Assembly: GCA_016937155.1 (NCBI GenBank)
Contig: JAFGWM010000050.1
Coordinates: 1-38,968 of the forward strand
Direction: 5' to 3'
DNA from: Deltaproteobacteria bacterium
Lineage (GTDB): Bacteria > Myxococcota_A > Polyangia > HGW-17
DNA: 38,968 nt
Below the pieces are notes generated by a model. The model did not search any database and was not told the origin of the DNA. It saw only the letters and a program-made list of their open reading frames with translations. Positions 28,365-30,377 of the stretch are shown here, one piece after another (position 1 is the stretch's first letter; the number at the start of each line of letters is the position of its first letter). Position numbers and translations under genes: made by a program.

Positions 28365-30377
28365 ATGAGCCTGTTTAGTTTTAATATTGAAGCCACCAGC
28401 GCCGGTACAATGGCCAGAGCGGGATGTCTTACTACTATGCACAATACTGTTAAAACACCAGTATTTATGCCAGTGGGGACTAAAGGTGCAGTAAAGGGTG
28501 TAACTGTGCCTATTCTTAAAAAAGCTGGTTCTGAAATACTTCTGGCAAACACATATCATCTTCATTTAAGACCTGGTTCCGAATTATTTCGCAAAGTTGG
28601 AGGTCTCCATAAATTTATGAACTGGGATGGTGGTATTCTCACAGATTCAGGTGGCTTCCAGATCTTTTCCTTACCTGAGTCGAGGATTATTACTGAAGAA
28701 GGTGCAGTCTTTCGCAGTTACATTGATGGGAAATCCATTTTTCTATCACCGGAGATTAGTATCGGTACTCAAATGGCAATAGGATCTGATATAATGATGG
28801 TTCTTGATCAGTGTGTACCATCCACTTCTGATTATGAAACCACAAGAAATGCGATGGAACTTACTCACCGGTGGGCATTAAGATCCCTTGAAGCAAAGAA
28901 GGGATCTCCTCAGGCAATGTTTGGTATAGTACAGGGCGGATGTTTTGAGGAATTACGTCGTGAGAGTGCCGATTTCCTGACAAATCTGCCATTTGACGGG
29001 TATTCTATTGGTGGTCTGGCTGTAGGAGAAACAAAGGATGAAAGGGAGCATTACACAGCATTTGTTACAAAATTTATTCCTCAGGATAAGCCACGATATC
29101 TCATGGGCGTTGGAACACCGATTGATATACTTGAGGCTGTCAATTCAGGAGTGGATATGTTTGACTGCATCATTCCAACACAGCTGGCAGCTCAGAGTTT
29201 TGCTTACACAAGTGAGGGACAATTAAGGCTGGAGCGCAGTGTCTACAGGGAAGATTTAAATGTCCTTGATGATAAATGCAGTTGTGAAACCTGCAGTAAT
29301 TATTCCAGAGCGTATATTCATCATCTTTTCAAATCAGGGGAACATCTTGGTGTGGAACTGGTCAGCATCCATAACATCCATTTTTATCATAAGTTGATGG
29401 CCGAAATTAGAAAAAACATTGTTGATGGTACTTTTGCTGATTACTACAGAGAAAAGAGAAAGGTTCTAATCCTCAGGGATGAAAAGAATCCTATGAAACA
29501 TCCTGTAAAAAAACGGAGGAAAAATCCACCTCAGAAAATTGGGAATTATGAAGTTTTTTCTGCAACTGGAGATTTTTATTCCATCAGGCACATTGAAAGT
29601 GGAGAAGTGATGCACAGTGTTAATGATCCTGATGATGAAGCATTTTCTCTATACGCAGGGCAGTTAAGGTTTGATGTGTTAGATTATAAAGAAAAAAACT
29701 CTCTTGTCGTGTGGGATGTCGGTCTTGGTGGTGGACATAACGCCATGAGTCTCATAAGACATCTGCAGGAGATGAATATTTCCGGAAATAATCTTCATGT
29801 TCACATTGTCAGTTTTGAGAATGAAATGGACTCTTTCAGACTTGCAGTTTCCAATCCGTCACGTTTTCCTCATGTCCGCCACAGCGCACCTGTTTCTCTT
29901 TTAAAGAGCAATGTATGGGAAACGGAAAACATATCATGGACTCTGCTTAGTGGTGATTTTCTCATTAAAATGTACGATGCACCATCGCCTGATTTTGTAT
30001 TTCATGATCCGTTTTCCAGAGATGTAAATTCCAGACTGTGGACTGTAGAGTGTTTCAGAAATATTCTGAAGTGTGCTGATGGCTGTGTTGAGCTTTTTAC
30101 ATATTCCAATTCAACCTCTGTTAGAGCAAGCCTTCTTATGGCAGGATTTTATGTTGCGGAAGGGTTCCCTACGGGTCCCAAAAAAGACACCACAATTGCT
30201 TTGAGCCCACCCGTCATGAAAACTAAAAGACATAAATTAAGAAAGTTTCTCGATAAGGACTGGCTTTCCCGTTGGGAGAGGAGCAGTGCGAAACTACCTC
30301 CTCTTTTTGATCAGAATGAAATTGATAGTGTTGAAGAAATCATCAGAAATCATCCTCAGTTTAAAATGGAACTATGA
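28365..30377 (+). CDS. tgt: Fused tRNA-guanine transglycosylase and MnmD-like methyltransferase
   Basis: A 670-residue fusion of two tRNA wobble-base enzymes. Residues 1-363 are a queuine/preQ1 tRNA-ribosyltransferase: D94 in T-D-S-G-G-F-Q, D148 in V-L-D-Q-C, F-G-I-V-Q-G-G, G-G-L-A-V-G-E, nucleophile D267 in V-D-M-F-D-C, and zinc ligands C305, C307, C310 and H336. The loop after the nucleophile reads P-T-Q-L-A-A-Q-S instead of the usual P-T-R-x-A-R-N-G. A basic linker (about 364-392) leads to a domain like the methyltransferase half of MnmC (MnmD, DUF752), which finishes mnm5(s2)U34: [16 protein letters not shown] motif G-L-G-G-G-H-N-A at 453-460, and [13 protein letters not shown] near 547-559. 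Tgt alone is about 375 residues. AAAGGA precedes the ATG. Confidence 0.9.

Follow-up and report, generated by a model that had tools for sequence, protein, structure and literature searches.

A Tgt paralogue fused to an MnmD-like methyltransferase: a candidate enzyme for N-methyl-preQ1 in RNA

The queuosine intermediate preQ1 is 7-aminomethyl-7-deazaguanine, and QueA, the next enzyme of the queuosine pathway, acts on the amine of its aminomethyl group. A second aminomethylated base, nm5U34, is the substrate of MnmD, and its synthesis is begun by MnmE and MnmG. Methylated preQ1 is also made in phage DNA by DpdA pathways, in which DpdA is a remote relative of tRNA-guanine transglycosylase (Tgt). 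These pathways act on DNA and not on RNA, but the N-methyl group would sit on the same preQ1 arm as in the modification that we propose here. The study of dPreQ1 in phage DNA that we consulted (PMC6884629) does not contain the names mdPreQ1 and mPreQ1 in its text.

The catalytic roles in Tgt belong to Asp280 and Asp102 (PMC6165067), and its preQ1 pocket is determined by Cys158, Val233, Leu231 and Glu235 (PMC3660597). A pocket that reads GGLAVG goes with preQ1, and one that reads GG[LS][AS]G with queuine (PMC10723273). MnmC2 adds a methyl group to the amine of an aminomethylated wobble base; Asp178 of MnmC is thought to activate this amine and Glu101 binds the ribose of SAM (PMC3648344). In bifunctional MnmC, the MnmC2 domain is joined to an FAD oxidase, MnmC1. 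The gene described here resembles bifunctional MnmC in that an MnmC2-type domain is fused to the would-be maker of its amine substrate; the partner, however, is a transglycosylase predicted to insert an aminomethyl-bearing base, whereas MnmC1 is an oxidase that uncovers the amine.

We analysed a window of 38,968 nucleotides (the whole stretch of DNA considered here), in which positions 28365–30377 of the plus strand form a single open frame with an ATG start and its stop codon, encoding 670 amino acids. All features of the gene given below lie on the same strand. Residues 1–372 (28365–29480) are a TIM barrel with a zinc site; the Pfam TGT domain covers residues 17–365 with an E-value of 1.9e-145, and the score against TIGR00430 is 467.9 bits, for a curated cut-off of 306.75. 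The only NCBIfam models matching on this side of the protein are those for Tgt, TgtA and ArcS. The domain at residues 396–670 (29550–30374) is an MnmC2/MnmD-like SAM methyltransferase according to domain models, a sequence match to 3vyw and fold matches. Pfam Methyltransf_30 (PF05430) matches residues 520–613 above its cut-off (E 3.2e-13), and the MnmC2 model NF033855 matches residues 411–611 with 49.8–52.8 bits, under its cut-off of 136. A Pfam search of the 670 residues did not find the DAO domain that forms the FAD oxidase MnmC1. The two domains are connected by a basic linker at approximately residues 366–392 (29481–29549), where model confidence drops to a pLDDT of 71–79 (residues 371–390). 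An AlphaFold2 model of the whole chain, calculated with an alignment of 64 fusions, has a mean pLDDT of 92.9 and a pTM of 0.70, at which value the placement of the two domains relative to each other is uncertain.

The gene is thus a complete Tgt and an MnmC2/MnmD-type methyltransferase in one uninterrupted frame, and both this arrangement and the basic linker agree with the original prediction, which had been made from the DNA sequence alone. Its expectation for domain-model searches is borne out by TIGR00430 and PF05430, which are matched above their cut-offs, and not by the MnmC2 model, which is matched below. Downstream of the fusion (30621–34035, plus strand) lie two genes that look like a sarcosine or amino-acid oxidase pair, a 2Fe-2S and pyridine nucleotide oxidoreductase followed by a DAO-family protein. 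The region 22881–28080 on the minus strand holds two large, secreted-looking proteins, one with repeated TIG domains (22881–25424) and one with EGF and fibrinogen-C-like domains (25528–28080); such proteins are unusual for a bacterium.

The first half of the protein, which we call Tgt2, is 44–50% identical to bacterial Tgt (TIGR00430, EC 2.4.2.29; Z. mobilis 1ozm and T. maritima 2ash) and shares its fold. In a Foldseek search with the first half of the model, T. maritima Tgt (2ash) is matched with 50% identity and a TMt of 0.97, and Z. mobilis Tgt is found as well. Asp94 (28644–28646) is equivalent to the catalytic Asp102 of the Z. mobilis enzyme and Asp267 (29163–29165) to the nucleophile Asp280. 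Both aspartates are invariant in the 64 fusions, which rules out a non-catalytic subunit of the QTRT2 type. The zinc ligands Cys305, Cys307, Cys310 and His336 (29277–29372) are invariant in the same set. The base pocket is of the preQ1 type, with GGLAVGE at residues 216–222 (29010–29030; GGLAVG is invariant in the 64 fusions) and Cys150 at the place of Cys158. Since the pocket does not read GG[LS][AS]G, queuine is an unlikely base for this enzyme.

Tgt2 differs from bacterial Tgt in the canonical motif PTRxARNG, for which it has PTQLAAQS (29175–29198), so that Arg286 is replaced by Gln, Arg289 by Ala and Asn290 by Gln. Arginine is found at both positions in 30 of 30 canonical Tgts from the host genomes, whereas nearly all of 99 Tgt2 sequences have lost both. 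Members of the Tgt2 clade carry Gln, Ala, His or Ser at 286, Gln, Trp or Lys at 289 and Gln or Arg in place of Asn290; furthermore, Asn304 is changed to Arg in 98 of the 99. We take Arg286 and Arg289 to be residues that contact the UGU loop in the structure of Z. mobilis Tgt with RNA. Because both arginines are lost, Tgt2 probably reads an RNA other than that of the canonical enzyme.

In a tree of 129 Tgt sequences, the 30 canonical enzymes and the 99 Tgt2 sequences separate with a support of 100 on each side. The fused forms have one origin (support 97), after which the methyltransferase was lost twice, and the split and solo Tgt2 forms are their sister clade (support 88). The methyltransferase of the fusion likewise forms one clade apart from the MnmC/MnmD proteins of the same hosts, a grouping to be read with care given its long branches.

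The methyltransferase is present in 36 of 144 relatives and, in a phylum-wide sample, in 24 of 379 genomes. At every one of the 30 loci retrieved for the class, it is fused to Tgt2 or lies directly beside it, never beside canonical Tgt, and the Tgt partner is 50–68% identical to that of the window. The one-frame fusion occurs in the family of the window (f1) and in f15, and elsewhere in the class most families have the two as adjacent genes. Two genomes of family f14, the family in which MnmG is missing (G483 and G341), appeared fused by frame length, but have Tgt2 and the methyltransferase in different frames and are therefore split. A domain-alignment scan of 84,980 species genomes returned more than 449 relatives, and 78 of the best 80 carry the one-frame fusion. 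Across their full length, the fused relatives are 45–58% identical to the protein of the window. According to the labels of the sequence records, these best 80 belong to Bdellovibrionota, Verrucomicrobiota, Spirochaetota, Pseudomonadota, Acidobacteriota and Myxococcota, with single records from Binatota and Eiseniibacteriota; one of the 80 (L120) has the methyltransferase without a Tgt in its locus. A metagenome bin recorded as Klebsiella pneumoniae (L139, CAMAXZ010000007.1) encodes a fused Tgt2 that clusters among Myxococcota sequences, and the record is probably misnamed. A scan of viral contigs gave no viral relatives.

The original prediction had named an assembly error as the alternative origin of the join. 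This can be ruled out, because both domains share one frame in independent genomes from its own genus and family (L004, L005) as well as in the 78 relatives mentioned above, even though part of the class has split, adjacent genes. The fusion family is real, old and widespread, spanning at least six phyla. Apart from the pair itself, no conserved neighbour gene was found in approximately 90 loci, so the operons give no clue to the target. Four genomes (G044, G098, G108 and G135; loci L063–L066) contain Tgt2 without an adjacent methyltransferase, and the coupling of the two is therefore not absolute. Further lone copies are found in G134:C21 (L067) and G075:C417 (L069), and the PTRxARNG motif is mostly lost in lone copies too. 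One genome, G114, has two complete pairs of Tgt2 and methyltransferase.

A separate canonical Tgt is encoded by 42 of the 44 carriers examined, and in the genome of the window it adjoins queA (G000:C50); the Tgt that serves queuosine synthesis in these cells is therefore not the fusion. Of the same 44 carriers, 41 also have QueA (42 among the 45 genomes searched), and neither queA nor canonical Tgt was found in G166 and G168. Searches of G100, G114 and G140 gave no QueC or QueF, and since QueA and canonical Tgt are present there, these bacteria may salvage preQ1 from outside. That one half of the fusion may have taken a new substrate, as originally suggested, fits well with a paralogue that stands beside canonical Tgt and has lost the motif arginines. 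The survey proposed at that time, for hosts lacking stand-alone tgt and mnmC, turned out the other way: stand-alone tgt is present in most hosts, and some encode mnmC as well.

The first alternative to consider is that the protein simply combines two independent wobble enzymes, with Tgt2 placing preQ1 at G34 of the queuosine tRNAs and the second domain making mnm5(s2)U34 in others. Known members of both folds act on position 34, and the genome of the window encodes MnmE and MnmG and no PF05430 protein other than the fusion. Elsewhere the picture is different. Four genomes that are 96–100% complete and keep the pair (G054, G100, G114 and G140) lack MnmE, for which only GTPase-domain matches were obtained, and also MnmG, for which only weak flavoprotein matches were obtained. 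MnmG is absent from four further pair carriers with a completeness of 92–97% (G015, G031, G083 and G134). These eight genomes fall in families f7, f14, f22 and f25, and MnmG is absent from all six f14 genomes tested. The methyltransferase is not decaying under these circumstances. Between G100 and G114 it has a dN of 0.21 and a dS of 0.76 (dN/dS approximately 0.28), with a dN of 0.087 and a dS of 0.55 for the accompanying Tgt2, and it is thus under purifying selection where MnmG and MnmE are missing. The equivalent of Asp178 is present in the MnmG-less forms.

Because eight good genomes keep the pair without MnmG, and four of them also without MnmE, nm5U34 is an unlikely substrate of the methyltransferase half (METHYLTRANSFERASE). 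All eight carry the split form, so that the step from these genomes to the fused form is one of homology. Fused carriers without MnmE and MnmG were also found (G164, G166 and G170), but these are metagenome bins for which completeness figures are lacking. In addition, six genomes (G147, G150, G156, G160, G170 and G175) encode a clear MnmC/MnmD (PF05430, 85–125 bits) in addition to the fusion. Together with the canonical Tgt of most carriers and the missing arginines of Tgt2, these observations make a union of two ordinary wobble enzymes unlikely, and with it the coordination of two ordinary wobble modifications that was first put forward for this gene. As a separate observation, MnmG is also missing from G024, G061, G110, G123 and G023 (and MnmE too where checked), and the cmnm5/nm5U34 pathway appears to have been lost lineage-wide, throughout entire families (f14 and the tested f7 genomes) of this class, which are bacteria with large genomes.

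A second alternative is a regulatory switch: Tgt2 would stay on the UGU tRNAs, and the fusion, competing with QueA, would form N-methyl-preQ1 in some of them. The unchanged catalytic site and preQ1 pocket would suit such an activity, and the residues at 289 and 290 are often Gln, Lys or Arg, which might still bind RNA. On the other hand, the canonical enzymes encoded by these genomes keep both arginines without exception and Tgt2 has them replaced, and two enzymes serving one set of tRNAs would be redundant. We therefore consider a switch of this kind quite unlikely. The window contains no tRNA genes, and the region 27900–30700 has no credible Rfam match to a preQ1 riboswitch.

Modelled alone, the second half has a pLDDT of 93.3. 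A sequence search finds a single relative of solved structure, A. aeolicus MnmC2 (3vyw, E 1.7e-17), and this is also the first fold match, with a Z-score of 23.8, followed by 3ps9 (21.5) and 2qy6 (21.3); in the ranking, 3vyw is followed by E. coli MnmC and then by spermidine synthases. Compared with MnmC2/MnmD (DUF752; 3vyw and the E. coli MnmC N-domain, 2qy6), the fold is the same and the active site largely so. Glu485 (29817–29819) corresponds to Glu101, Asp548 of the DPF motif (30006–30008) to Asp178, the proposed amine-activating base, and Phe180 has its equivalent as well; Asp548 is invariant in the 64 fusions. The presumed catalytic Asp and the MnmC2 fold and active site are kept, as judged from alignment and model. 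The domain nevertheless differs from MnmC2/MnmD in scoring under the curated threshold, in forming its own clade, in being tied to Tgt2 and not to MnmC1, and in being kept where MnmG and MnmE are missing. Furthermore, Asp26 of MnmC is replaced by Glu414 (29604–29606, region GEVMH), a Glu that is invariant in the 64 fusions. The low score against the curated MnmC2 model (49.8 bits, with a cut-off of 136) and the exchange of Asp26 for Glu might be read as Tgt2 inserting preQ1 and the second domain methylating another atom or a nearby nucleotide (in RNA or on the free base). This is very unlikely, given that the domain retains the residue presumed to activate the amine, Asp178, together with its surroundings, and that the nearest folds, MnmC2 and then the spermidine synthases, act on amines.

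The original prediction missed the chemical link between the two halves: preQ1 bears an aminomethyl group, and groups of this type are what MnmD methylates. We propose, with a probability of roughly 60%, that the fusion is a bifunctional enzyme that inserts preQ1 into RNA and methylates it to N-methyl-preQ1, a hypermodified base that has not been described. In a first step, the Tgt2 half would exchange a guanine in RNA for preQ1 by the usual covalent mechanism of Tgt. The RNA would probably be a tRNA whose anticodon loop differs from the UGU loop found in queuosine tRNAs. In a second step, the MnmD-like half would transfer the methyl group of SAM to the aminomethyl amine, the same chemistry as in the conversion of nm5U to mnm5U, to give 7-(methylamino)methyl-7-deazaguanosine. 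Since QueA uses the same amine, methylation would block it, and methylation within the same protein would secure, or cap, the product before QueA acts. That the RNA target has changed, that the product is N-methyl-preQ1 and why the two halves are fused are inferences. For the further proposal that the site lies outside the four queuosine tRNAs for Asn, Asp, His and Tyr, with N-methyl-preQ1 and queuosine coexisting in the same cells, we see an even chance.

In the open-licence literature, we found no description of the fusion, of methylated preQ1 in RNA or of related terms, in line with the original prediction, which did not recognise the fusion as a described family. Because it scores as an ordinary Tgt with TIGR00430 when annotated automatically, the family is easily hidden under the Tgt name. 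If the proposed function is correct, preQ1 would be a branch point and not only an intermediate of queuosine synthesis, and one cell would derive two 7-deazaguanine modifications from it, QueA completing one and a methyl group capping the other. It would add a nucleoside to the list of those in RNA and provide a Tgt whose RNA specificity is new, and give a clear contrast in nature from which to learn how Tgt reads its loop.
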